Positions 1 through 9,116 of a DNA stretch of 9,116 nucleotides are shown here, one piece after another. This stretch comes from Rubrobacter sp. (GTDB lineage Bacteria > Actinomycetota > Rubrobacteria > Rubrobacterales > Rubrobacteraceae), in NCBI GenBank assembly GCA_013815575.1, contig JACDFX010000029.1, positions 1 to 9,116 of the forward strand. The letters run 5' to 3'. The notes beneath the pieces were generated by a model. It was not told where the DNA came from. It was given only the letters and a program-made list of their open reading frames with translations, and made no database searches. Made by a program: the position numbers and the translations under genes. Position 1 is the stretch's first letter. Every line of letters begins with the position of its first letter.

Positions 1-26
1 GTGCGGAGAAGGAGCATTCTCCGCAC
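1..26. terminator. Perfect 10-bp inverted repeat, possible terminator
   Basis: Arms GTGCGGAGAA (1-10) and TTCTCCGCAC (17-26) are exact reverse complements with a 6-nt loop. The methyltransferase gene on the minus strand ends at 91, so this hairpin lies 65 nt downstream of its stop and could end its transcript. Any T-tract would lie beyond the left edge of the window, so the terminator role cannot be confirmed. It could equally be an operator or the end of an element outside the window. Confidence 0.4.
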
Positions 27-90
27 TTGGATGAATAAGGACTGGAGGGGGTACACGTGTGCACGGTAGGGTTGCGCCGCGCCGGTGGTG

Positions 91-723
91 CTACCCCGTC
101 TTGTAGACGAAGAGGCGGGTCATATGTGATGTGTTCCCGGCGGGGAAGGGCTGGAACGCTTCGCTCATCGTCACCCTCTGCCACCTACCCTCTTTCTCCA
201 GCGACGCTTGCTTCTGCTCGAACCCCTCGTTCCAATACACGTCCTTGCGGACGCTGAAGATCACCCAACCGTCTGGTTCGACGACCCGCACGAGCTCGTC
301 GAGCGCTTCGGGCGGGGCGTGGTTCGTCGTGAAGACCCCCACGGAGACGGCGGCCGAGAAGGAGCCGCTGTCGAAACCTAGGGCCTCACCCATCACCATG
401 CGGTGCAGGGCATGGTACGCATCCTTTTCGCCGGCCTTCTCGAGCATGCGCTCGGAGATGTTTATCCCCACGAGGTCATCGTAGCCGAGCACGCGCAGGA
501 TGCTTCCGAACATGCCGGTGCCCGCGCCGGCATCCAGCACGGTCCCCCCGAGCGGGACGTGGCGTCCCACGAACCCGGCCGCCACGGCGGCTACCGCATA
601 GCCCAAGCTCAGCATATCGTCTTCGTAATCTTCCGCCCACTCGTCGTAACTGCTAGCCAACTCGCTGTTGTCGCGGGCCGAGAAAACGTTCTGCAGCCTC
701 TTGGATCTCTCCGAATCTCCCAA
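91..723 (-). CDS. Class I SAM-dependent methyltransferase
   Basis: A predicted cytosolic protein of 210 residues that should transfer a methyl group from S-adenosylmethionine; the substrate is unknown. Motif I is clear at residues 62-70 (VLDAGAGTG), preceded at 26-33 by YDEWAEDY, typical of small methyltransferases of the METTL27-like/Methyltransf_11-25 group. A post-I acidic/hydrophobic segment (LVGINISERMLEKA) and a late strand (DGWVIFSVRKD) complete a Rossmann-type fold. The start is TTG at 723, chosen because AGAGGGG lies about 4 nt upstream and the fold begins soon after; no ATG fits better. The gene points away from the iteron origin, whose first repeat lies about 100 bp upstream of the start. 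There is no membrane segment or signal peptide. The family is fairly sure; any role in the plasmid (DNA, RNA, protein or small-molecule methylation) is unknown, and no DNA-methylase NPPY/DPPY motif is visible. Confidence 0.85.
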   Translation of the reverse strand: MGDSERSKRLQNVFSARDNSELASSYDEWAEDYEDDMLSLGYAVAAVAAGFVGRHVPLGGTVLDAGAGTGMFGSILRVLGYDDLVGINISERMLEKAGEKDAYHALHRMVMGEALGFDSGSFSAAVSVGVFTTNHAPPEALDELVRVVEPDGWVIFSVRKDVYWNEGFEQKQASLEKEGRWQRVTMSEAFQPFPAGNTSHMTRLFVYKTG

Positions 724-746
724 GATTCCCCTCTCTTCGCCGCCGG

Positions 747-756
747 GTTGTACAAC
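747..756. promoter_or_regulatory. GTTGTACAAC palindrome upstream of the methyltransferase
   Basis: A perfect 10-bp palindrome lies 24 bp upstream of the TTG start of the minus-strand methyltransferase gene, where an operator would be expected. No convincing -35/-10 pair is visible around it. A 10-bp palindrome can occur by chance, so this is only a candidate regulatory site. Confidence 0.2.
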
Positions 757-826
757 GCTACCGCGGGGCTCCCGTGCTGCGTGGCGTCCATAACGAGATC
801 AGCGAAACCTGGTCGAATAGACCGCC

Positions 827-890
827 GAATACCGACCTCTCACGCATGAATCCTGGTTCTTTGATACCGAATACCGACCTCTCACGCAAG
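827..890 (+). repeat. Distal iteron pair (2 copies)
   Basis: Two near-identical direct repeats, GAATACCGACCTCTCACGCA at 827-846 and 869-888, lie 42 bp apart start to start, about four helical turns. They match the consensus of the main array at 1016-1171 but are separated from it by about 125 bp. Such satellite iterons commonly serve copy control, handcuffing or autoregulation in iteron plasmids; that role is inferred here. Confidence 0.85.
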
Positions 891-970
891 GTCACGGACT
901 CAGGTGCAGCGGCACGACCCGGCAAATGCCAGCTCTAGGGACCATCGGCACACAACGAAGGCCTGCAAAA

Positions 971-1001
971 GCGAACAATCTATGCCGACAACCTTGTTCG
1001 G
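971..1001. promoter_or_regulatory. Inverted repeat CGAACAA/TTGTTCG in the origin
   Basis: CGAACAA (972-978) and TTGTTCG (994-1000) form 7-bp inverted arms with a 15-bp spacer, just left of the main iteron array. In the same spot CCGACAA and TTGTTCGG (985-1001) give a tighter imperfect dyad. It lies between the distal and main iterons, where a host-factor or regulator site would be plausible. The binding protein is unknown. Confidence 0.3.
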
Positions 1002-1015
1002 AGCGCCGGAAAGCC

Positions 1016-1171
1016 GAATACCGACCCCTCGGACAAGGGATACCGACCTTTGGCGCAAGGGATACCGACCACCCACGCAAGGCGATACCGACCCTGGGCG
1101 CAAGTTTTGGCGACCTCTCGCGCAAGGAATACCGACCCCTCACACAAAGAATACCGACCTCTCACGCAAGC
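1016..1171 (+). repeat. Main iteron array (7 direct repeats), plasmid origin
   Basis: Seven tandem copies of a ~22-bp unit with core ATACCGACC followed by YCTCRCGCAAG-like sequence. The cores start at 1018, 1040, 1062, 1085, 1107, 1129 and 1151, so the period is 22 bp with one 23-bp step, keeping copies on nearly one face of the helix. The copy at 1107 is the most divergent (TTGGCGACC); those at 1129 and 1151 are closest to the distal pair. The array ends about 110 bp before the initiator gene and is followed by AT-rich DNA, the classic order of an iteron origin: repeats, melting region, rep. The Rep protein encoded at 1283 is the expected ligand. I see no canonical DnaA box (TTATNCACA or the actinobacterial TTGTCCACA) on either strand between 724 and 1282. 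Confidence 0.93.
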
Positions 1172-1270
1172 TGAAAAAGAGAACTACCTGCAAATGCAAG
1201 GTTTTTCTTCCGGTTCTTCGGTTTCTATGTATGTAGTGTTCTTGTTAAATGTTGTGTTATTACAAACAGG
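1172..1270. other. AT-rich stretch, candidate DNA-unwinding element and rep promoter region
   Basis: About 65% A+T over roughly 100 bp in an otherwise GC-rich window, placed directly between the iterons and the initiator gene. It carries T-rich short repeats (TTCTTCCGG, TTCTTCGG) and alternating TATGTATGTA. This is where an iteron origin is usually melted. The rep promoter must also lie here or in the iterons, which would give autoregulation, but several weak -35/-10 combinations compete and I cannot choose one. AGGGGAGG at 1268-1275 is the rep ribosome binding site. Confidence 0.65.
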
Positions 1271-1282
1271 GGAGGCTTGAGG

Positions 1283-2770
1283 ATGGGGAAGCCCAAACGC
1301 GAGGTAGTAGCGTTGGGGAAACGGGGCCGAGCAGAACTCGTACCCACAGAAAAGAACATCGAGGAATCTTACCTCTTCGCTGGCGGTGCCAACGATGCGA
1401 AAGAGATCCGGGAGTACGTCATTCCCGTCACGCTAGAGGACGGCACGTCGGCGATGCGGAGGTTCAAGTACACGCCGTCCGAGGAGTACGGGGACACCAC
1501 AGATTTCGACAGGGACGTGTACCGGGCGCTGATCCTGCTTGCGCACCGGAAGGGTGGGATGCCAGACGATGGCGTCGTGTTCTTCAGCCTCTACGAGGTG
1601 CGCAACATTTTAGAGCTCCCGGACAACGGAACGAGTTACAGAAAGATAAGGGACTCGATAATCCGGCTGCAAAAGCTCCTGGTCGACGCGGACGTATACC
1701 GGAAGACGCTCCGTGGGTTCAAGAGCGAGTACTACACGGTGTGGCGGGTGAACTTTGAGGCGAACGAGGACAAATACGGCCGGGCGGTGGAGCACCATTG
1801 GGTCAGGTTCGACGACGTGGTCGTGCGTAGCTACAAGGAAGGTTACGTGCGGAACCTGGACCACGACTTCTACTTCTCGCTGAGCAAGAAGCACGCCCGT
1901 GGACTCTACAGTGAGATCGACCTCGGGCGCGGCAACGGGCTGGTATGGGAGGTACCGCTGGCGAACCTGAAGGCCAGGCTGGGGATGGCGGCGAGCTACC
2001 GATCTCCCTCCGCGCAGAAGCGCGCGCTGGAGCCGGCCCACGAGGAGATGAGACGCAAGGGGTTTCTCGCCAGCGTCTCCTTCCCAGACAAGTACACGAT
2101 CCGCTACGAGGTCGCCGAACAGTTCGTGGCGGAGAGAACCTTCCTGGAGCGGAGCTGGACGCGCGATGAGGAGCAGACCATCAGGACCCTCATCCGCAAC
2201 GAGGTTTGGCCGGTTCAGGCCCGCGAGCTGGTCGCCGAAAAGGGCACGGTGCTCTGCAATTATTACATCCGTGCACTTCCCTACCAGAAGTGGGTTCGGG
2301 AGCCGGGCGCCTTTCTCTACAAGTACATCAAGAACGAGAAGCCGCTTTCCGTGGAACCCCCGCAGATGTTCTTGGAAGAGGCCGGAGTGGTGCCCGATGG
2401 TAAGGTCGGCCCCTCCTACGCCGACGTGGCCGACCGCGGTGGACCGCATGAAGGAGGCGGCGAGTTCTCGCGCCGGCAGGACGCCTCTCCACGTCCCGAA
2501 CCGTCAGAGCCCGACTCGAACGCCCAGGAACTGTTCGATGGTTTGCTGACGGATGTCGGCGACGATATAGACGCCTCTTCGCTCCGTGTCTGGTTCGATG
2601 GAATCGTGGCCACGGCCTTCCGGGGCGGTACGCTAACGATCGAGGTCCCAAACGCATTCGCTAAGGAGTACATCGAGTCCCGTTTCGGGGCGCTCCTTGT
2701 AGGAGCCCTAAGCTCCCGCGTCGGAGAGGACGCAGGATTGGAGGTCGTCGCGAGGACACGGACCCGTTGA
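1283..2770 (+). CDS. Plasmid replication initiator (RepA/RPA-type winged helix) with C-terminal DnaA domain I-like region
   Basis: A 495-residue initiator that should bind the upstream iterons, open the AT-rich DNA and recruit the helicase. ATG 1283 is preferred over TTG 1277, since AGGGGAGG (1268-1275) then sits 7 nt away. Residues ~45-270 look like the Rep winged-helix superfamily (replication initiator protein A/TrfA-like): FDRDVYRALILLAH, then LSKKHARGLYSEIDL, then SAQKRALEPAHEEMRRKGFL. Residues ~290-350 carry a segment common in such Reps (WPVQARELVAEKG ... PGAFLYKYIKNEK). A Pro/Ser-rich linker (~370-412) follows. Residues ~415-490 then match the DnaA N-terminal domain I pattern: LFDGLL at the start, W437 in RVWFD, GTLTIEVPNAFAKEYIESRFG, and a last strand GLEVVAR. 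In DnaA this domain contacts DnaB helicase and domain I of other monomers. The family call rests on motif patterns, and the exact Pfam assignment is uncertain. Confidence 0.9.
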   Translation: MGKPKREVVALGKRGRAELVPTEKNIEESYLFAGGANDAKEIREYVIPVTLEDGTSAMRRFKYTPSEEYGDTTDFDRDVYRALILLAHRKGGMPDDGVVFFSLYEVRNILELPDNGTSYRKIRDSIIRLQKLLVDADVYRKTLRGFKSEYYTVWRVNFEANEDKYGRAVEHHWVRFDDVVVRSYKEGYVRNLDHDFYFSLSKKHARGLYSEIDLGRGNGLVWEVPLANLKARLGMAASYRSPSAQKRALEPAHEEMRRKGFLASVSFPDKYTIRYEVAEQFVAERTFLERSWTRDEEQTIRTLIRNEVWPVQARELVAEKGTVLCNYYIRALPYQKWVREPGAFLYKYIKNEKPLSVEPPQMFLEEAGVVPDGKVGPSYADVADRGGPHEGGGEFSRRQDASPRPEPSEPDSNAQELFDGLLTDVGDDIDASSLRVWFDGIVATAFRGGTLTIEVPNAFAKEYIESRFGALLVGALSSRVGEDAGLEVVARTRTR

Positions 2771-2781
2771 GGTTGCTCATT

Positions 2782-2830
2782 GCCGTGAAGGAACTTCGGT
2801 GGGACGAGGCCGGATGAGGGTTCCTTCGGC
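2782..2830 (+). terminator. Stem-loop after rep
   Basis: GAAGGAAC (2787-2794) pairs with GTTCCTTC (2820-2827). With a 2-nt bulge, the stem extends by GCC (2782-2784) to GGC (2828-2830), about 11 bp in all with a 25-nt loop. It begins 11 nt after the rep stop codon. No T-tract follows, so it may be a weak or factor-assisted terminator or a transcript-stabilising hairpin. Confidence 0.45.
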
Positions 2831-2968
2831 TATGGTCGAGTCATTGCGACGCGTTATGAGCGCCTGTAGTCTACATAATACGTTTCAGAAGAGATCTCGG
2901 AGGTCTACCATCGTGACCCTCTTCCCCACCCCGGCGCCCGTTTGTTAGTCTTGGGGTTGCTCTGGTGA

Positions 2969-3103
2969 CCTTTTTCCTTCGCTGCTTCGCGGTGCGGTGT
3001 TGGTCCTTTCTGGGTTTGGGTTTTTCTCTCTTGCCTTCCTTTGGTCGGCTTTTGGGTTGGTGTGTTGTGGTGTGGTGCTGTCGCTGCGCGCCTCGCTTCT
3101 TGT
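2969..3103. other. 135-nt tract without adenine on the + strand
   Basis: Between the A at 2968 and the A at 3104 the + strand contains only C, G and T, with runs such as TTTTTCC, GGGTTTGGGTTTTT and GTGTGTTGTGGTGTGG. The minus strand is correspondingly T-free, so an RNA read leftward would contain no uracil and cannot contain a stop codon. Open minus-strand frames here are therefore not evidence of coding. The function is unknown; a single-stranded or R-loop-prone element, a primosome or replication-related site, or a leader RNA are possibilities. Confidence 0.75.
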
Positions 3104-3107
3104 ATGT

Positions 3108-3113
3108 ATTATA
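3108..3113 (-). promoter_or_regulatory. TATAAT -10 box reading into the adenine-free tract
   Basis: The minus strand reads TATAAT at 3113-3108, within the short AT-rich patch 3101-3125. No good -35 element lies 16-18 bp upstream. If active, it would transcribe leftward into the T-free strand, giving an RNA with a U-free segment of about 135 nt starting close to its 5' end. Confidence 0.3.
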
Positions 3114-3337
3114 AGTAAAAACGTTAGGACATCCTTGGTACTCTCCCCCACTCCCCACCATATGCCACCTCACGATCTTGGCACTTAGGGTGATTTCTGT
3201 GCAGCCGCCCAACACCTTCCCGCCAGCGGCCCCGCAGACGTGCCACACGCCCCGCTGAGGGCTGCCGAGCGTCTCCCGGGTCATCCCCCACTTCCCAAAA
3301 GCTCAGAAACGAATCTCGCGGCCGTGTCTTACCAACT

Positions 3338-3499
3338 TACCCGGCGAAGGCGGGGCGAGCCGCTCGCTACGGGCTCGAGGGCCGGGAGCACGAGACGCTC
3401 CAGGACCTCGCCGACAGGCTCGGCATCACCCGCGAGGGGGTGCTACAGCTTCAGGCCTGCGCGGTGGAGACGCTGGGAAGTCGCTGCGGCCTCTCTTGA
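3338..3499 (+). pseudogene. Relic of sigma-70 factor region 4 (helix-turn-helix end)
   Basis: In the frame of 3365-3499 the + strand reads RYGLEGREHETLQDLADRLG and then ITREGVLQLQACAVETLG, ending at TGA 3497-3499. This follows the sigma-70 region 4.2 pattern residue by residue (RYGL-dG-TLeEvgeefgvTRERIRQIEakALrkL), which contacts the -35 promoter element. Key positions are altered: RERIRQIEAKAL has become REGVLQLQACAV. The reading frame opens only about 40 bases before the match, with no start codon or ribosome binding site and none of regions 2-3, so only the extreme C-terminal piece remains. It is not in an operon. It probably derives from an rpoD-like gene brought in by recombination. The match is seen by eye and needs an alignment. 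Confidence 0.6.
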
Positions 3500-3601
3500 G
3501 CGAGTTGAAGAAGCACTCCTGGAGCATCTTCGGCGCATCCACGTGGCCGTCTTTCGCGAGGCTCGGACACGCCCTGCCAGCAACGACAGACGCCACATTT
3601 T
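3500..3601. pseudogene. Unassigned coding-like fragment
   Basis: Both strands look coding-like over about 100 bp. The + strand reads ELKKHSWSIFGASTWPSFAR and the minus strand reads SLAKDGHVDAPKMLQECFFN followed by SLKRG. Both have GC-rich third positions. The + frame ends at a TAA inside the palindrome at 3602-3638. There is no start codon or ribosome binding site on either strand. It is probably a leftover of a gene or insertion element, but I do not recognise it. Confidence 0.25.
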
Positions 3602-3638
3602 CAGATTTATGGAAATGTACTACATTTCCATAAATCTG
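3602..3638. promoter_or_regulatory. Site A: 37-bp perfect palindrome (AT-rich)
   Basis: CAGATTTATGGAAATGTA (3602-3619) and TACATTTCCATAAATCTG (3621-3638) are exact reverse complements around C3620. The site is an AT-rich island in very GC-rich DNA. Each arm is itself a rough dyad (AGATTT-atgg-AAATgT), so the whole looks like two inverted operator units. It aligns with site B (3947-3981) at 24 of 35 positions. Possible roles are an operator, a partition centromere or a recombination site. There is no T-tract, so a terminator is unlikely. Confidence 0.7.
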
Positions 3639-3945
3639 GGATAGAGGCCCGCGCGGTGATTGTGCTGGTGGGCGCAGTGGATCTTGCCGGGCCCGGCCGC
3701 GTGCGGCTCTCGGGACCGTCAAGAGCGCCTCGGCGGGCCGAGCGGGCCGAGGAGGGGGCACAAATCTCGCCTCTAAGGATGCTGAGGGACGCGTGGAGCG
3801 TGCGTAGTAGCTCATAGAGGTAGTGAGACCCCCCACGCGGGAGGAGGGACTGAGCGCGCGCCGCGAAGACGGGAACCTGGCGACGAAGGCGGGCCGCCGC
3901 AGCGGGCGCGGTCGTCGTCGCCGGATCGCGGGCGGTGCGGTGTTT
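3639..3945. other. GC-rich stretch without a recognisable gene
   Basis: No frame on either strand has a start, ribosome binding site and plausible protein. The only structure seen is a GC hairpin around 3728-3755 (CCTCGG arms near both ends, with CGGGCCGAG repeated twice inside). This is spacer DNA between the two palindromic sites A and B, or the remains of a gene. Confidence 0.45.
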
Positions 3946-3983
3946 TAGATTTACGAAAATCTACCTCATTTTCGGAATGTTGA
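3946..3983. promoter_or_regulatory. Site B: AT-rich dyad overlapping the parA promoter
   Basis: TAGATTT-acga-AAATCTA (3946-3963) is a perfect 7-bp dyad. It is followed by a diverged inverted unit (CATTTTCGGAATGTT, 3967-3981). CGAAAAT/ATTTTCG arms (3954-3960/3968-3974) also pair. The arrangement mirrors site A, 344 bp upstream. It ends at the -35 element of the parA promoter, the usual position of an operator or centromere bound by the small partner of a ParA system. Confidence 0.6.
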
Positions 3984-4008
3984 ATTGTGTGGGGGCCGCC
4001 ATTAAGAT
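3980..4008 (+). promoter_or_regulatory. Probable sigma-70-type promoter of parA
   Basis: TTGAAT at 3980-3985 (-35) is separated by exactly 17 bp from TAAGAT at 4003-4008 (-10). Transcription would begin around 4015, leaving a short leader with GGGGAGGG (4032-4039) before the GTG at 4047. The -35 is overlapped by the 3' edge of site B, so a protein bound there would block the promoter. Confidence 0.6.
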
Positions 4009-4046
4009 GGGTACGGTGTGTCGGCGGCGTCGGGGAGGGCATCGGC

Positions 4047-4694
4047 GTGAGGATCAACGTGATGGGCTACAAGGGCGGCGTGGGCAAGAGCGTGACAGCC
4101 ATGCACCTGGCGGCGGCGCTCGGCCACCGGTTCGGGGAGGGGACGACGGTGGTGGTGGACGCCGACCCGAACCAGAGCCTGGTACATTGGCGGGCCGGGC
4201 GGCCGGAGGGTATGGAGCCTTGGCCGTTCGAGGTGGTGGGCCTGGAGATGGGGAGCGCCTGGCAGCGGTACGAGAACGTTGTCTTCGATTCGCAGGGGAG
4301 GCCGAGCGACATGGACCTGCAGGCCGCCGTGCGGGGGTCGGACCTCATCGTGGTGCCCACGACGGCGGAGGGGCTATCGATGCGGCCGTTGATAGGGTTC
4401 CTGGCCAGGCTGCGCAAGATGGGGGCGAGCTACAGGGTGCTCCTGACGATGGTGGGGTGGTGGAACACGCAGGCGCAGGAGCGGAGGAAGCAGCTGGAGG
4501 ACGCGCGTCAGCCGGTCTTCGGGCCCGAGATCCGCAGGCGTCAGGCATTCGACACGGCGACCGAGACCGGGAGGCTCGTCTACGAGTTCCCGAACAGCAG
4601 GGCCCAGGAGGCATGGCGATCGTACAAGCGGGTTGCCGATGAGGCCGTCGAGGAGATCGTCGGCGCAAGGCGCGCGCTCGCGGGTAGGAGATAG
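4047..4694 (+). CDS. parA: ParA-family partition ATPase
   Basis: A 215-residue P-loop ATPase of the ParA/MinD superfamily, expected to pattern on the nucleoid and segregate plasmid copies with a DNA-binding partner. The deviant Walker A is at residues 9-15 (KGGVGKS, with signature lysine K9 and phosphate-binding K14). Walker A' is VVVDADPNQS (35-44) and Walker B is VVFDSQG (78-84, D81). A further strand LIVVPTTAE follows. It is short and lacks an N-terminal helix-turn-helix, as in the type Ib ParA group, whose operator function is carried by the small partner. The start is GTG 4047: GGGGAGGG lies 7 nt upstream and the P-loop then begins at residue 9. The frame is open further up to GTG 3987, but that start has no ribosome binding site and lies upstream of the predicted transcript start. 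It is followed 2 nt later by the partner gene. Confidence 0.92.
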   Translation: MRINVMGYKGGVGKSVTAMHLAAALGHRFGEGTTVVVDADPNQSLVHWRAGRPEGMEPWPFEVVGLEMGSAWQRYENVVFDSQGRPSDMDLQAAVRGSDLIVVPTTAEGLSMRPLIGFLARLRKMGASYRVLLTMVGWWNTQAQERRKQLEDARQPVFGPEIRRRQAFDTATETGRLVYEFPNSRAQEAWRSYKRVADEAVEEIVGARRALAGRR

Positions 4695-4696
4695 CG

Positions 4697-5122
4697 GTGG
4701 GCAGGGAGAGGATCGACCGGACGGCGAACCCCCTGGCGGCGATGATGGACGAGTCGCTCGAAGAGCTGGAGCGGGAGGACGCGTTCGGGGCGTCCGAAGG
4801 CGAAGGACACGCCGGGTCGGCCCCCGAGGCCGGAGAGAGGCACGAGCGCCGGGCGTCGGCCGTCGGGTCGGGCGTAGGGCGGGCGGCGCCGGTTCGAAGG
4901 GCGGGCAGGCGGCCGGGACGACCGAGGGGGGGAAGGAACTCCGACCCGAACATGGTGCCGATCTCGGCGAAGATCGACAGGGAGGTACGGTTCGCCGTGG
5001 ATAGGGTTCTGGCGGAGCAGAGCCGGCTGCAGGGGAGGCCGGTCTACATGGCGGAGGTCATCGAGAGGCTGCTGCGCTTCTACGTCGAGCGGGGCGACCC
5101 CTACGAGATCTTTTCGGGGTGA
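4697..5122 (+). CDS. Small ParB-like partition partner (AT-hook-like plus ribbon-helix-helix-like)
   Basis: A 141-residue protein starting at GTG 4697, 2 nt after the parA stop, with GTAGGAG (4684-4690) 6 nt upstream, so the two genes are translationally coupled. Residues 1-30 are acidic-helical and 31-65 are low-complexity. Residues 67-80 are very basic (RRAGRRPGRPRGGR) and contain a GRP core like an AT-hook. Residues ~86-133 (PISAKIDREV ... YMAEVIERLLRFYVERG) fit a ribbon-helix-helix pattern of strand and two helices. Position and size match the centromere-binding and repressor partners of type Ib ParA systems. It would bind sites A and/or B, nucleate the partition complex and repress the operon. 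Sequence similarity to known ParB proteins is not visible, so the role rests mainly on context. Confidence 0.75.
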   Translation: MGRERIDRTANPLAAMMDESLEELEREDAFGASEGEGHAGSAPEAGERHERRASAVGSGVGRAAPVRRAGRRPGRPRGGRNSDPNMVPISAKIDREVRFAVDRVLAEQSRLQGRPVYMAEVIERLLRFYVERGDPYEIFSG

Positions 5123-5409
5123 GTCGGGAAGACGGGCCCAACGGGCGGGCGGGGGGATCCGGGTTGGGTGGGGGTGGCGCAACAGGGACCAGACGGCCTG
5201 GTAGGGGCTGAGGAGGAAGGCGCCCAGCAGCACGCTGCGAGCCTACCGGTGGCTGGACCGGCCGCCTCCGGCCGGGGCCTCCTGGCTGCTCGGGTGCCTG
5301 AAGGCGGCTATCTCCGGCGAGACGCTGTTCTGATGGGGTAACGGTAGCGGCTCGTGCATCAGAGTGGCGTCCTTCGGTGGACGTTTGGCAAGAATAAGAG
5401 GAGGAGAGC
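5123..5409 (+). pseudogene. Decayed coding fragment with an internal TAG
   Basis: In the frame ending at TGA 5331-5333 the + strand reads RNRDQTAW (around 5178-5201), then TAG (5202-5204), then GLRRKAPSSTLRAYRWLD and RPPPAGASWLLGCLKAAISG to the end. The run has GC-rich third positions and a protein-like composition but no start codon or ribosome binding site after the TAG. It looks like the 3' end of a lost gene, truncated near 5150. I do not recognise the family. A competing GTG frame (5174-5341) is less protein-like. The remaining ~75 bp hold only the ribosome binding site of the next gene. Confidence 0.35.
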
Positions 5410-5680
5410 GTGGCCGACGACCCCTACGAAGGCCTGAACCTCGCGCCGCCAGAAGGGGGCTTCGAGCTGTGGCGCCACAGGAACGCCGACAAGATAAGCA
5501 CGAAGGGCTGGTCGGGGCTCTATCTACTGGGCGAGGAAGACGGCGGGCGGCGACTACGAGATCCGCACCCTCACGCGCGAGGGCGAGGCGTACTCCTACC
5601 CCGGAGGGGTCTTCCCGAGGGCGGCATTCGAGCGCCTCTACGAGAGGGTGGACCCGGCCGATACGGGACCCGGGGAGTAG
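5410..5680 (+). pseudogene. Small unknown gene with a +1 frameshift
   Basis: AGAGGAGGAG (5397-5406) precedes GTG 5410. The first frame gives MADDPYEGLNLAPPEGGFEL and then WRHRNADKISTKGWSGLYLL-GEEDGG, after which it becomes an Arg/Gly-rich shadow. Skipping one base at about 5551 continues in another frame as DYEIRTLTREGEAYSYPGG and VFPRAAFERLYERVDPADTG to TAG 5678-5680. The joined product is about 89 residues, soluble, acidic and probably beta-rich. The shift lies in a GGCGGGCGGCG stretch, so a real mutation, a sequencing error or programmed shifting are all possible. The strong ribosome binding site argues that the gene was functional recently. Its function is unknown. It converges on the XRE-type gene at 5706. 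Confidence 0.6.
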
Positions 5681-5695
5681 GAAGAGGGTAGGTCT

Positions 5696-5719
5696 CCGAA
5701 GCCGGCTACCGGCCCTCGG
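5696..5719. terminator. Hairpin between convergent genes
   Basis: GCCGG-cta-CCGGC (5701-5713), extended by CCGA (5696-5699) and TCGG (5716-5719), forms a stem-loop between the ends of two convergent genes and overlaps the stop codon of the minus-strand one. A bidirectional terminator is plausible by position, but no T-tract follows on either strand. Confidence 0.4.
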
Positions 5720-6417
5720 CAGAAGACGCCCCGCGACCGGACCCCTCGGGCGACGGGACACCTTCAAACTGCCGCACTATGCCCAGGACCAGTCTCCTCT
5801 CCCGATCCGGCAGGTGTGCGCTCTCCCTCGCTATCGCCCTGGTCGTGTCGTCCCTTAGGGCCTCCACGATCTCCCCGTCGAGGGCCGCTTCCCCGTACCC
5901 GTCCACCAGGTAGGACGGCTCGACGCCGAAGGCCCTTGCCAGGGCGACCACGTGGCTCAAGGGGGGATCGGTCACGGAGCCGCTCCTTAATCCCTTAACG
6001 TCTTCCTCGGAGAGATCGCCCAGGCTCATGCGGGCGATCCCGGAGCCGGTGTACGTTTCTCCCGTCTTAGGGTCCTTGATCACGTCGAACAGGCGCCCCA
6101 CCCTGCCCGTGAGCCCTTCGGGTGCGCCCGCGGCTCCTCGTCCATCCGCGCCGGATAGCTCCTCCTCGAACCAGAGCGCGGGGGGGGAGAGGCCATCGCC
6201 TTGGCCAGCGCCTCCGAGAGGCGGTGGTCGCGGGCGCGCAGGGCCCGGTGGACGAGTTCCCAGCACCTATCGGCGTCGATCTCGGGGCCGCTAGCGAAGC
6301 TGACGAGGCCGCAGATCCTGGCCGAGTCGATCTTCAAGAGGGCGTCGGCCGCGTCCACGGCGTGCCGCCACTCCTCCGGGGTCCGGGGGTCTCGGGCGGC
6401 TCTATGGTGGTCGTCAA
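5706..6417 (-). pseudogene. XRE-type helix-turn-helix regulator, broken by two frameshifts
   Basis: Three frames join into one protein-like product of about 237 residues if one C is restored at each of two C-runs. TTG 6417 has AAGGAGG 9 nt upstream and gives MTTTIEPPETPGP. After the CCCC run (plus 6378-6381) a second frame gives EEWRHAVDAADALLKIDSAR and ends near LSEALAKAMASP. After the eight-C run (plus 6180-6187) a third gives ALWFEEELSGADGRG and the regulator domain. That domain (GSGIARMSLGDLSEEDVKGL, then DPPLSHVVALARAFGVEPSY-LVDG) is of the XRE/EspR-like type found in actinobacteria; its first helix-turn-helix elements and FGVEPSYL are characteristic. The C-terminus is a long helix (IARESAHLPDRERRLVLGIV). 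As read, no intact protein would be made from TTG 6417. Internal starts could give fragments. Confidence 0.7.
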
Positions 6418-6449
6418 CTTGGGGATCCTCCTTCCGGGAACCGGTCTCG

Positions 6450-6491
6450 GGGTTCCCTCCCCCGGATTATACGGAGGGCGGGAGGGAACCC
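6450..6491 (-). promoter_or_regulatory. Promoter with TATAAT inside a 12-bp inverted repeat
   Basis: On the minus strand a perfect TATAAT lies at 6471-6466, about 50 bp upstream of the XRE-type gene's TTG start and just after the ardC stop. It is enclosed by perfect 12-bp inverted arms at 6450-6461 (GGGTTCCCTCCC on the + strand reading) and 6480-6491, with an 18-nt spacer. No TTGACA-like -35 is visible. Such a dyad around a -10 box suggests an operator, perhaps for the regulator itself. Alternatively the stem could act as the ardC terminator, though no T-tract follows. Confidence 0.55.
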
Positions 6492-6507
6492 TTTAGCCGA
6501 GTGCCGC

Positions 6508-7494
6508 TTACGCCGCAGCGCTCGTCCGCGGCTTGCGTTCGCGCTCGGCGGAGGCGTCGCTTTGTTCTACCGACGAGATGATGCGGTGGGCGACGGTCTG
6601 GACGTTCTTGAGCGCGGCCCGCAGGACCTCCGTGCGGCCGGCGAAGTTGGCGACGTAGGCGAAGGAGAACGCGCCCGTGTCCAGGCCGAAGTACGAGAAG
6701 ACCGCAAAAGCGGCGCCCTCGGCCTCGACCTCGAGCGTGGTCTTGGTGTCCTCCGTAGCTTCGCTACGCTCGGCGTGGAGGAGGTGGTGGATGGTCTCGT
6801 GGCACAGAGTCGAGGCCCGTTCGACCGGGGGCATGCCGCGCGTGAGCGCGATCTCCTTCTTCCGGCGGTCGTACTGCCCGTAGCGCCCTTTGAGGTCCTC
6901 GTCGCGCACCCGGACCCGCTCGGCCGCCAGCAGGCGCCTCAGGCCGATCTCCAGGCGGGCCGCGGCTGCGGCCTCGCCGGCGGCTCCCGAATCGACGGCG
7001 CCGGGGGTCGGCGCTTCGGGGAGGGGAGGGGCGCCGGGGATGGGGTCCGTCTGTTCCAGTGCGAAGACCTTGACGACCTTGAAGCCCGTGAGGATGCGCT
7101 GCTTCTCCGTGTCTTCGCCTTCGGCCTTGCCGTCGTACCCGGCCTCGGCCCGCTCGCGCTCGTCGCGGTGGATCTTGCGGAACCGCGGGGCGAAGATGCC
7201 GATACCGTTCTCGTCACGGCGGACCTGGCGGCCGAGCTCCTGCCAGCGCTTGTAGCCGGCGACGCGGGTCGCGTCGGGGCGCTGGAGGTAGATGAGGAGC
7301 GAGTTGTTCGGGCTGTAGCGGTGGAAGGCGGCCATGAAGCGCAGGTAGTCCTTGAAGGGTCCGGACTCCAGGATGCCACAGACGCCCTCCTCCAGGAGCG
7401 CAAGCGCCCGGGCGACCTTCGCCTCGCGCGGCCCGAACGCTGCCGGGGCCCCGGCGGGGGCATCGTTGTGTTGGGTGTTCTGCTCGGTGGTCAC
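6508..7494 (-). CDS. ardC: ArdC-like antirestriction protein (ssDNA-binding N-terminus, zinc peptidase-like C-terminus)
   Basis: A 328-residue protein resembling ArdC-type antirestriction proteins and the linked ImmA/IrrE-like peptidases, which protect incoming plasmid DNA from host restriction. The N-terminal part (~20-110) shows the ArdC pattern: LLEEGVCGIL, then FMAAFHRYSPNNSLLIYLQR, then VAGYKRWQELGRQVRR and GIGIFAP. A Pro/Ala-rich insert covers ~150-178. The C-terminal part holds HETIH (232-236) with a downstream EVEAEGAAFAV (255-265) that should supply the third zinc ligand, followed by FGLDTGAFSFAYVANF. The start is GTG 7494, with GAGGAGGT 9 nt upstream. The frame is open far upstream, but that stretch has shadow-like composition. 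A 60-residue gene precedes it by 53 bp on the same strand. It is soluble. The gene symbol is by similarity to the family, not orthology. Confidence 0.88.
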   Translation of the reverse strand: MTTEQNTQHNDAPAGAPAAFGPREAKVARALALLEEGVCGILESGPFKDYLRFMAAFHRYSPNNSLLIYLQRPDATRVAGYKRWQELGRQVRRDENGIGIFAPRFRKIHRDERERAEAGYDGKAEGEDTEKQRILTGFKVVKVFALEQTDPIPGAPPLPEAPTPGAVDSGAAGEAAAAARLEIGLRRLLAAERVRVRDEDLKGRYGQYDRRKKEIALTRGMPPVERASTLCHETIHHLLHAERSEATEDTKTTLEVEAEGAAFAVFSYFGLDTGAFSFAYVANFAGRTEVLRAALKNVQTVAHRIISSVEQSDASAERERKPRTSAAA

Positions 7495-7547
7495 GTCCTC
7501 TGTACCTCCTCGTGCTCGGTTTGGTGGGTTCGGGAAGCGGGATGGGG

Positions 7548-7730
7548 CTACGACGGGTCGGGGTACACGACTCGGCCGGTGGCGGCCTCGACGCTCTCGT
7601 GTCGGATGCCTGGGCGGACGCCACCGGTAGATCCCGCGCCGTCCAGGAGCGCCGGGAACGCGCGCGCCTCCGAGAGGAGCGCGGTGTCGGCGACGATCTC
7701 GCGGCGGCCGTCGGAGCCGACGCGCCTCAC
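7548..7730 (-). CDS. Small protein of unknown function upstream of ardC
   Basis: Sixty residues starting at GTG 7730, with AAGGAG placed 6 nt upstream. The product begins MRRVGSDGRREIVADTALL and ends ATGRVVYPDPS. It is acidic to neutral, has no membrane segment, has codon-biased third positions and shows no domain I recognise. It sits 53 bp ahead of ardC on the same strand, so the two are probably co-transcribed. It could be an accessory or leader protein. The other frames here are Arg/Ala/Pro-rich shadows. Confidence 0.6.
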   Translation of the reverse strand: MRRVGSDGRREIVADTALLSEARAFPALLDGAGSTGGVRPGIRHESVEAATGRVVYPDPS

Positions 7731-7763
7731 GACGTACTCCTTCAGGGTGGCCGCGGCGGCGGG

Positions 7764-7769
7764 TAAACT
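7764..7769 (+). promoter_or_regulatory. TAAACT -10 box of a leaderless-type promoter
   Basis: TAAACT (pattern TAnnnT) ends 7 nt before the GTG at 7777, the spacing typical of actinobacterial leaderless transcripts, where transcription begins at the start codon. The gene has no Shine-Dalgarno sequence, which fits. The -35 is weak (TTCAGG, 7741-7746, 17 bp away). The box lies between two divergent small genes. Confidence 0.45.
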
Positions 7770-7776
7770 CTGGCGC

Positions 7777-8016
7777 GTGCGACGCGACGGGGTTTCGGAC
7801 GAGCCGGCGATGGGGCTGCCTTCGGGCTACTCCCTCGAGGCGGAGGGACGGAACCGGCTGGTCCTCGGGCGCGCCGACGGCTCGGCGGTGTGCGCCTTCG
7901 CCTTCTCGGCCTTCGGGCCGACGCCCGAAGCCGTCGGCGAGGCCGCCGAGGAGGACCGCCTCCGGCGGCGGGCACGGGGGCTTGCCGGGGACGAGGAAAC
8001 GGGGAGGGGCGAGTAG
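7777..8016 (+). CDS. Small protein of unknown function
   Basis: Seventy-nine residues from GTG 7777 to TAG 8014-8016. The readable core is GLPSGYSLEAEGRNRLVLGR, then ADGSAVCAFAFSAFGPTPEA and VGEAAEEDRLRRRARGL. This suggests a short beta-hairpin segment (a YxLE...LVL...DGS pattern) followed by an amphipathic helix. Third positions are almost all G or C. The start is chosen for the leaderless -10 box. An alternative is ATG 7810, which also lacks a ribosome binding site. It is divergent from the ardC operon and is followed 2 nt later by another start. I do not recognise a family. The frame is open on both sides because of base composition, so the N-terminus is uncertain. Confidence 0.55.
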   Translation: MRRDGVSDEPAMGLPSGYSLEAEGRNRLVLGRADGSAVCAFAFSAFGPTPEAVGEAAEEDRLRRRARGLAGDEETGRGE

Positions 8017-8018
8017 TA

Positions 8019-8210
8019 GTGGCCGCGCGCGAGGTCCTTGCGGAGATCTCGCCCCGCCTGGGGGCGGCCGAAGGACGGCTCGGCGCGCCTGGTAGGGCTG
8101 CTCGGGGAGCTCGTCAACGACGGGTTGATCACCTTCGGGGTGCAATGCGCCGGTCGTGCTAGATGGTCTCGCGCGTTGATTCGGTCGACCCGGTTGTGCC
8201 ACAACCTTGG
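8019..8210 (+). pseudogene. Truncated, frameshifted second gene of the small operon
   Basis: GTG 8019 starts 2 nt after the preceding stop, with GGGGAGGGG (8001-8009) 9 nt upstream, so it was coupled to the gene before it. The first frame reads VAAREVLAEISPRLGAA. After one extra base at about 8068-8071, the next frame gives KDGSARLVGLLGELVNDGLI-TFGV, both parts helical and protein-like. Without the shift it becomes Arg-rich and stops at 8162. The shifted frame stays open into antisense mutL and loses protein character near 8140-8160, so the 3' end seems to have been replaced. The right limit given is where the next block begins and is approximate. The function is unknown. Confidence 0.45.
8192..8206. 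terminator. Short hairpin downstream of mutL
   Basis: GGTTGTG (8192-8198) and CACAACC (8200-8206) are exact reverse complements around one base, so a real RNA stem would have about 6 bp and a 3-nt loop. It starts 12 bp past the mutL stop on the minus strand. There is no T-tract. It is a possible weak terminator, or a marker of the junction between modules. Confidence 0.3.
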
Positions 8211-8217
8211 GTGCCGG

Positions 8218-9116
8218 CTAGTGCCTGTCCAGCTTGCGGGCTATGTCCCTGTGGTCGAGTCGGTAGCAGATCGAGCGGCCGTGCGGGCACGTGGCCGGGT
8301 AGCGGCTGCCCAACCACTCCCTGATCAGCGCCTCCATCTCCGGGTGGGAGAGCCTGTCTCCGAGCTTTACCGCCGAGTGGCACGCTATGGTGGCGAGGAT
8401 CCTCTCCTCCCTGCTCATCCCCGAGGCCGTCCCCTTCATGACCGAGATCGCCTGCCTGAAGGCCCCCGCCACGTCGCGCTGGGCCAGCGTGGAGATCACC
8501 CCGTTTATCCTGAAGGAAGCCTTGCCAAACGGCTCCACCTCGAAGCCGTACACTGAGAGCTCCTCTAGCGATTCAGCCGCCTGGGCGGCGTCCTGGGGCT
8601 CGAGCTCGACCACTTCGGGGATGAGTAGAGATTGTACGGTGGGCATCTGCTCGGCCTCGGGGTCGGTGAGCCTGTCGAGCAGGGCGCGCTCGTGAGCGAC
8701 GTGTTGATCGACGATCCATGCGGCCATTGGCTCGTCTACGAGGATGTAGCCCGAGCCTATCTGGCCCACCACGCGCAGGTCTCTGAGGCGCGGCAAACTT
8801 CCCCGCTCCACGCCTGACGCGGAGCCGACCCGTGAGAGGGGGGCGGAGGCTTGTTGTATGCGCCTGCGTTGCTCCGAGAGGTCGGGCGCGTTTGGTGGAT
8901 GAGATCCGGAGCCCTTGGAGGTTCCGAAGAGGCTGTCCGAAGTGACCGAGCCACGTTTATTGGTGCCAGTTGACCTCTTGCCGGCAGGTACGGAAGGGTG
9001 CGTCTCGTTCGCCAGGTGCCTCTCCGTAGGATACCTTTCCCGTGCAGCCAAAGGCGCATCGTTGCCGCCCTCGCTGGCCGGAGGCGGGGAGGGGCCAGAG
9101 GTGTCGGGTTCTGTGC
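8218..9116 (-). CDS. mutL: DNA mismatch repair protein MutL, C-terminal part (5' end beyond the window)
   Basis: The last ~299 codons of a MutL. The frame stays open to the right edge (TEPDTSGPSPPP..., then ARERYPTERHL), so the TTG at 9051 is not the start. The N-terminal GHKL ATPase and transducer domains lie outside the window. A disordered Ser/Pro/Gly-rich linker (~9116-8795) leads to the dimerisation/endonuclease domain: LRVVGQIGSGYILVDEP, then DQHVAHERALLD (8709-8674), ATIACHSAVKLGDRLSHPEM (about 8400-8335), and CPHGR near 8289-8270. The DQHA-x2-E-x4-E metal motif is present as DQHV-AH-E-RALL-D, so A is V and the last E is D. ACH and CPHGR motifs support an endonuclease-type MutL. The stop is TAG 8218-8220. 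MutL couples MutS mismatch recognition to strand incision. Its presence beside plasmid modules is unusual. Confidence 0.92.
   Translation of the reverse strand, partial: TEPDTSGPSPPPASEGGNDAPLAARERYPTERHLANETHPSVPAGKRSTGTNKRGSVTSDSLFGTSKGSGSHPPNAPDLSEQRRRIQQASAPLSRVGSASGVERGSLPRLRDLRVVGQIGSGYILVDEPMAAWIVDQHVAHERALLDRLTDPEAEQMPTVQSLLIPEVVELEPQDAAQAAESLEELSVYGFEVEPFGKASFRINGVISTLAQRDVAGAFRQAISVMKGTASGMSREERILATIACHSAVKLGDRLSHPEMEALIREWLGSRYPATCPHGRSICYRLDHRDIARKLDRH

Follow-up and report, generated by a model that had tools for sequence, protein, structure and literature searches.

A Rubrobacter plasmid initiator with DnaA domain I at its C-terminus and a predicted route to the host helicase through DnaD

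How the helicase passes from an initiator to an origin has been worked out in detail in only a few bacteria. A contig of Rubrobacter sp. (JACDFX010000029.1, assembly GCA_013815575.1) raises the question of how this step is made on a plasmid, as its replication initiator, Rep, ends in a DnaA domain I (DI). Which host protein does this domain bind, and does the plasmid need host DnaA? The window analysed is the whole stretch of 9,116 nt, positions 1 to 9,116 of the forward strand. A preliminary description of it had proposed that Rep, with its own copy of the domain, could load the host DnaB helicase without DnaA. Among the papers listed by literature searches there was neither experimental work on replication initiation in Rubrobacteria nor a paper on the Rep-DI fusion. 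Rep with its DI is a compact and testable system that could show if Rubrobacteria plasmids replicate without DnaA. The rep gene has the following parts.

1283..2770, + strand: rep, plasmid initiator of 495 aa, composed of RPA body, linker and DI (ORF, Pfam)
1466..2044, + strand: RPA / winged-helix DNA-binding body, residues 62-254 (Pfam, Foldseek)
2162..2332, + strand: module of four helices that follows the winged helices, residues 294-350 (AlphaFold2 model)
2369..2515, + strand: G/P/S/E/D-rich linker before DI, residues 363-411 (AlphaFold2 model)
2516..2752, + strand: DI, residues 412-490 (Pfam, predicted structure)
2573..2596, + strand: alpha2 region ASSLRVWF, part of the partner face and almost the same as in host DnaA (sequence identity)
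2648..2686, + strand: PNAFAKEYIESRF, start of alpha3, partner face, includes F459 at the B. subtilis F49 position (identity 0.92 to host DnaA)

The ATG start of rep matches that of a 95% identical homolog (P0001). Rep is a member of the family Replication initiator protein A (PF10134), with 42.1 bits against the curated cut-off of 27, and in Foldseek its whole model matched domains 2-3 of RctB (E 1.2e-8) and RepE54 (E 7.4e-4). TrfA (PF07042) matches 9 of 29 Rubrobacteria Reps at E up to 0.01 and has no match in the window Rep at E up to 1. The linker is disordered at residues 363-403, where pLDDT is below 50 in the AlphaFold2 model. DI belongs to DnaA_N (PF11638), with 27.9 bits when the whole Rep was scanned and 31.1 bits for its last 99 residues, the cut-off being 24.6. 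Its predicted fold is the KH-like a1-a2-b1-b2-a3-b3 of DnaA domain I, the models being least confident in alpha2, which makes half of the partner face. Domain I is the only part of DnaA found in Rep: AAA+ and Bac_DnaA gave no Pfam match at E up to 1, and the 15.8 bits of the NCBIfam DnaA model, against a cut-off of 343.9, come from the domain I part only. The domain, its predicted fold, its fusion to a winged-helix body and the linker between them, all put forward in the preliminary description, are confirmed.

Upstream of rep there is a 20-nt repeat in nine copies, seven of them at 22-23 nt spacing, and downstream of rep a partition region.

829..890, + strand: two outlying iterons, 829-848 and 871-890, ATACCGACCTCTCACGCAAG
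1018..1170, + strand: seven clustered iterons spaced 22-23 nt apart, each with 0 to 5 mismatches to the consensus of 20 nt
1171..1270, no strand assigned: AT-rich stretch with GC 35-42% between iterons and rep, a probable unwinding element
3987..4694, + strand: parA-type partition ATPase (ORF, profile matches)
4697..5122, + strand: small ORF downstream of parA, a probable partition partner judged from its position only

Nine iterons and an AT-rich stretch beside rep are the layout of an iteron origin. Initiators of iteron plasmids bind their iterons and open an AT-rich stretch. DnaA-box-like sites with up to two mismatches are absent within 471-1313, as had been observed before, and 16 sites that differ from TTATCCACA by at most one mismatch lie in the 363 nt downstream of host dnaA. 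The missing boxes had also been taken to fit helicase loading without DnaA, and this argument proved weak. At 26 of 29 rep loci, all seven DI-less ones included, no site with at most one mismatch to TTATCCACA was found in the upstream DNA, which was scanned over up to 800 nt and less at contig ends (for example 198 nt in L009, 164 nt in L015 and 418 nt in L021); the exceptions are L023, L025 and L027. Since the absence of boxes is common to the DI-less Reps as well, it does not discriminate for DI, and the expectation of DnaA boxes at DI-less loci was rejected.

Other contents of the window were also recorded. For the ORF at 4697..5122, the Pfam scan gave nothing at E up to 1. A 37-nt near-perfect palindrome at 3602-3638 (ATTTATGGAAATG..CATTTCCATAAAT), situated 5' of parA, is a possible operator or partition site. 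An ArdC-like protein and others are encoded too, and the 3' half of mutL (8221-9114, - strand) runs off the contig; another mutL of the same genome (L132), which is full-length, matches it with 90% identity over 880 nt.

RPA-type Reps, 29 in total, were found in 19 of 39 Rubrobacteria genomes. DnaA_N is present in 20 of them (Pfam, E up to 0.01); the other nine comprise seven without DI, one cut by a contig end and the Rep of R. marinus, whose DI lies on a second ORF. This R. marinus plasmid (L032) has its Rep annotated as two ORFs, 4001-4915 and 4980-5420, the second with DI, which may be a real split or a sequencing error. In a large protein database with 162 Rep homologs, both domains occur, by precomputed domain assignments, in 115 of 120 proteins among the matches listed. 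The domain pair of RPA and DnaA_N is already named in some databases, so the fusion as such is on record. DnaA_N was absent at E up to 1 from the six RPA initiators of other phyla examined among 98 non-Rubrobacter records, and no close phage relative of Rep was found in viral_contigs. When genome_contigs was scanned with the single Rep protein, the only matches were to residues 421-490, at two loci of Rubrobacter MAGs; these were read as dnaA, since their contigs have the lengths of two dnaA contigs searched here. A second, differently built protein family with DnaA domain I is represented by L120 (2971-4668) and P0121-P0240. It is large (252 proteins, 120 of them listed), has the domain at the N-terminus, and some members are named after Chloroflexota; the member scanned had no further Pfam match over cut-off. 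In L120, which may be a contamination of its bin, ParA adjoins the gene.

A tree was computed from 83 DI columns; it covers 21 Rep DIs and the DnaA of 30 Rubrobacteria and of 26 other Actinomycetota. Many of its inner forks are weak; the 21 Rep DIs form one clade with support 99/99, and together with Rubrobacteria DnaA they are split from the 26 other Actinomycetota DnaA at 100/100. The simplest reading of this topology would be a single capture from an early Rubrobacteria dnaA. Recent copying from dnaA of the own host was rejected, because own DnaA ranks only 13th of 30 for the window DI and the Rep DIs are one clade.

The part of DI that is kept closest to DnaA is the partner face. DnaA domain I of B. 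subtilis is bound by SirA at its alpha2/alpha3 face (PMC4285326), and this face recruits DnaD (PMC10201431, PMC6393240), for which T26, W27 and F49 are reported as required (PMC10201431). With the face defined as the 13 DI positions named as the B. subtilis SirA interface (PMC4285326), the window Rep equals host DnaA at 12 of 13 face positions versus 22 of 63 elsewhere (Fisher p 1.6e-4). At the 11 positions named for DnaD binding, 9 are equal, compared with 25 of the 65 others (p 0.009). By segment, identity to host DnaA is 0.89 in alpha2 (430-438), 0.92 at the start of alpha3 and 0.08 (1/13) in alpha1. Over all pairs of Reps and Rubrobacteria DnaA, face identity is 0.56 (rest 0.34). The corresponding values are 0.39 and 0.29 for pairs of a Rubrobacteria DnaA with an outgroup DnaA, and 0.53 and 0.35 for pairs within the outgroup. 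When pairs were binned by equal background identity, Rep pairs were above the Rubrobacteria-outgroup pairs and about level with pairs within the outgroup. These pairwise values indicate a face constrained about as in true DnaA, not more.

All 64 Reps of alignment A2, which were chosen for carrying DI, have W437, P456 and F468. F459 is kept in 50 of these 64 rows and in 9 of 21 Rubrobacteria Reps, and three Reps of genome G033 have PNST at its position. The DnaA proteins of G010 and G011 have Leu at the F49 position. The large divergence among Rep DIs, with Rep-Rep identity of 0.35 outside the face, might speak for a functionless relic of recombination; but the three invariant residues, a face that is the part best shared with host DnaA and the persistence of the fusion across genera make a relic very improbable.

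The fit of Rep DI to the DnaA of its own host is weak, which counts against the mechanism proposed below. Over all columns, the permutation p is 0.0098 by genome and 1/720 by genus. Matching by genome gave p 0.0024 for the face and p 0.29 for the rest, but by genus the face (15/720) is no better than the rest (23/720), and the claim that host matching is confined to the face was dropped. R. marinus is the best single case, with 13/13 face positions equal to own DnaA; it has Trp at the equivalent of position 434, which is unique among 30 DnaA rows.

Through self-association of the two domains, DI might instead recruit host DnaA and so provide the plasmid with DnaA without DnaA boxes. Domain I is reported to self-associate in E. 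coli, and its self-association has been shown in class Actinomycetes (PMC13270200). Of 21 Reps, 19 keep the alpha1 Trp at the position of the E. coli dimer, so that DI-DI contact with DnaA is possible, and the origin has no boxes. In the window, however, this Trp is replaced by Phe, and it is alpha1 that shares almost nothing with host DnaA; near identity to host DnaA is seen in alpha2 and at the start of alpha3. Recruitment of DnaA is for these reasons regarded as unlikely.

The host genomes offer a different partner. DnaD_dom was found in 34 of 39 Rubrobacteria genomes versus two of 14 controls (B. subtilis and L. lactis), and the Rubrobacteria DnaD proteins scanned were over cut-off in both TIGR01446 and PF07261. 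The DnaD-domain protein of host genome G000 has 44.4 bits in TIGR01446, where the cut-off is 24.95.

2423-3235 of L166: host dnaD

In the two genomes inspected, G000 and G024, an IstB/DnaC-type AAA+ ORF with a CxxC motif overlaps the end of dnaD; in G000 there is a predicted loader of DnaI/DnaC type (PF01695 AAA+, 48.3 bits, cut-off 24.1). DnaB_C is present in all five genomes searched, the own genome included. DciA (PF05258) was detected in none of the 39 Rubrobacteria genomes and in 7 of 14 controls, and in G011 the gap between the ORFs read as recF and gyrB, the usual place of dciA (PMC5109545), is only about 165 nt. Loss of dciA is reported where dnaC or dnaI is present (PMC5109545), and the lack of DciA in Rubrobacteria fits this rule; DciA was rejected as a relevant partner.

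From the host DnaD gene with its DnaC/DnaI-type gene, the lack of DciA and the analogy with B. subtilis, DnaD appears the likelier first partner of DI than DnaB. The preliminary description had named DnaB; in this reading DI would bind DnaB directly like domain I of E. coli DnaA, with no part for DnaD. On the E. coli numbering, we take F459 and S433 to be the equivalents of F46 and E21. Both E21 and F46 of E. coli DnaA contact DnaB (PMC13270200). F459 is conserved in the window and a DnaB_C protein is encoded in the own genome; because F459 is retained, sequence alone cannot separate DnaD from DnaB. Against DnaB, the E21 equivalent is Ser in both Rep and host DnaA, and a host dnaD followed by a DnaC/DnaI-type gene is the setting in which B. 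subtilis DI binds DnaD. Direct binding of DnaB is therefore doubtful, and the earlier claim was probably wrong or unsupported.

The mechanism proposed here, with confidence poised midway, is that Rep DI binds host DnaD and so brings the DnaI-type loader and the DnaB helicase to the iteron origin, host DnaA being dispensable. Sequence or structure prediction shows the Rep body, DI with its fold, the iterons with an AT-rich stretch and no DnaA box, the conserved alpha2/alpha3 face, and host genes for a DnaD-domain protein, a DnaC/DnaI-type AAA+ protein and DnaB. Rep would bind the iterons and open the AT-rich stretch, and DI would bind the DnaD-type protein of the host through W437 and F459. DnaD held in this way would bring the loader and the helicase to the origin. 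This contact would suffice to load the helicase, and DnaA would be unneeded; DI-less relatives with a DnaD tail or another module would join the same chain at another point. The observation is solid, the mechanism is likely in outline and its partner is predicted. The idea that Rep brings its own copy of a recruiting domain is retained from the preliminary description.

Reps without DI have other C-terminal ends. DI-less Reps L003, L021 and P0034 end in RRREGYEWIFGS, KRRQEGYEWLFGEGS and RRRDGYEWLFED, respectively, and GYEW[LI]F at the end of some DI-less Reps is the C-terminal tail of the host DnaD-domain protein. In B. subtilis, Trp229 in the DnaD C-tail is reported as essential for binding the co-loader DnaB (PMC10201431). 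Searched as a DNA pattern, GYEW.F gave 34 matches in 30 of 39 genomes versus three for a reversed control. The matches were 29 extreme C-termini of DnaD, all on contigs with a DnaD_dom match, three DI-less Reps (L003, L021 and L163), one ORF fragment with two tandem copies (L164) and one chance match (L158). L021 is barely over the RPA cut-off (27.3 versus 27 bits), and L163, a contig-end fragment without Pfam match, was called a Rep from the end it shares with L021. The dnaD products of G010, G011, G014 and G038 (L174-L177) have tails DYRWFF or DYRWFW, not GYEWLF.

P0026 has both the tail and a diverged DI, which is the least conserved of 64 at 25 conserved positions (15/25). Decay of DI after gain of the tail was considered for this protein and rejected, as its face is not specially low (6/13), with two others lower and several level. 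A third C-terminal module (..DLESLPYDQYSRFV..NRYYLSLEGDLYLYVG..) replaces DI in L008, L011, L013, L026, L030, P0082 and P0105. That part has no Pfam or NCBIfam match, and in the search for its source it was found only in Rep-sized frames (479-515 aa) at six places in four genomes.

In a tree of Rep bodies (n=78), computed by a quick method with SH-aLRT support only and with L021 on a long branch, the end states need seven changes, or six if P0026 is taken as DI only, and the tail alone needs three. The body of tail-bearing L003 is 79% identical to that of DI-bearing L005. By these comparisons, end modules have evidently been exchanged repeatedly on the Rep body. We read them as putative alternative plugs into the host helicase-loading chain; if this chain works as in B. 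subtilis, DI and the DnaD tail would be its successive links. A wider reading, plausible but held at somewhat less than even confidence, is that Rubrobacteria initiators consist of a body and interchangeable host-derived sockets, either DI, which would dock DnaD, or the GYEWLF tail, which would dock DnaI or DnaB. If true, module exchange lets plasmids join the chain at successive steps, skipping DnaA and then DnaD. The exchange of modules with host replication parts lifts the case above an ordinary domain fusion.

A regulatory role of DI, by titration of DnaD or some other partner of DnaA or by linking plasmid copy number to the host cycle, has a parallel in B. subtilis, where SirA acts on the same face of domain I (PMC4285326, PMC10201431). 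But DI is a covalent part of the initiator in 20 of 29 Reps and is swapped for other C-terminal modules, the DnaD tail among them, which suggests a constructive role in initiation and leaves regulation a slim prospect.

Among known systems, the closest is DnaA domain I itself (PF11638; B. subtilis 4tps, E. coli 2e0g, H. pylori 2wp0), with which Rep DI shares family, fold and the alpha2/alpha3 face. Unlike in DnaA, the domain is the C-terminal part of a plasmid Rep that lacks AAA+ and the DNA-binding domain IV, and it forms its own clade beside Rubrobacteria DnaA. RPA initiators from plasmids of Deinococcus, Thermus, Planctomycetes and Nitrospirota have the same PF10134 body, but DnaA_N is absent in the six examined. 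The long form of TrfA has its extra part at the N-terminus, and this part is not known to be a DnaA domain. TrfA-44 of RK2 is, like the window Rep, an iteron initiator, and is reported to load helicase itself in Pseudomonas (PMC4980987); the lack of a TrfA match at E up to 1 sets the window Rep apart from it. RepN/oriN of B. subtilis, compared here by its description, replicates without DnaA and with DnaD and DnaB, and this description mentions no DnaA domain I (PMC10201431). The Rep of pSK41 (RepA_N type) is described as composed of a DNA-binding domain, a linker and a C-terminal domain, the last being host-specific and in contact with the primosome of the host (PMC5703833). That C-terminal domain is reported to be DnaD-like and to bind DnaG (PMC5703833), whereas in the window Rep the corresponding end is a DnaA domain I and in some of its relatives a DnaD tail.
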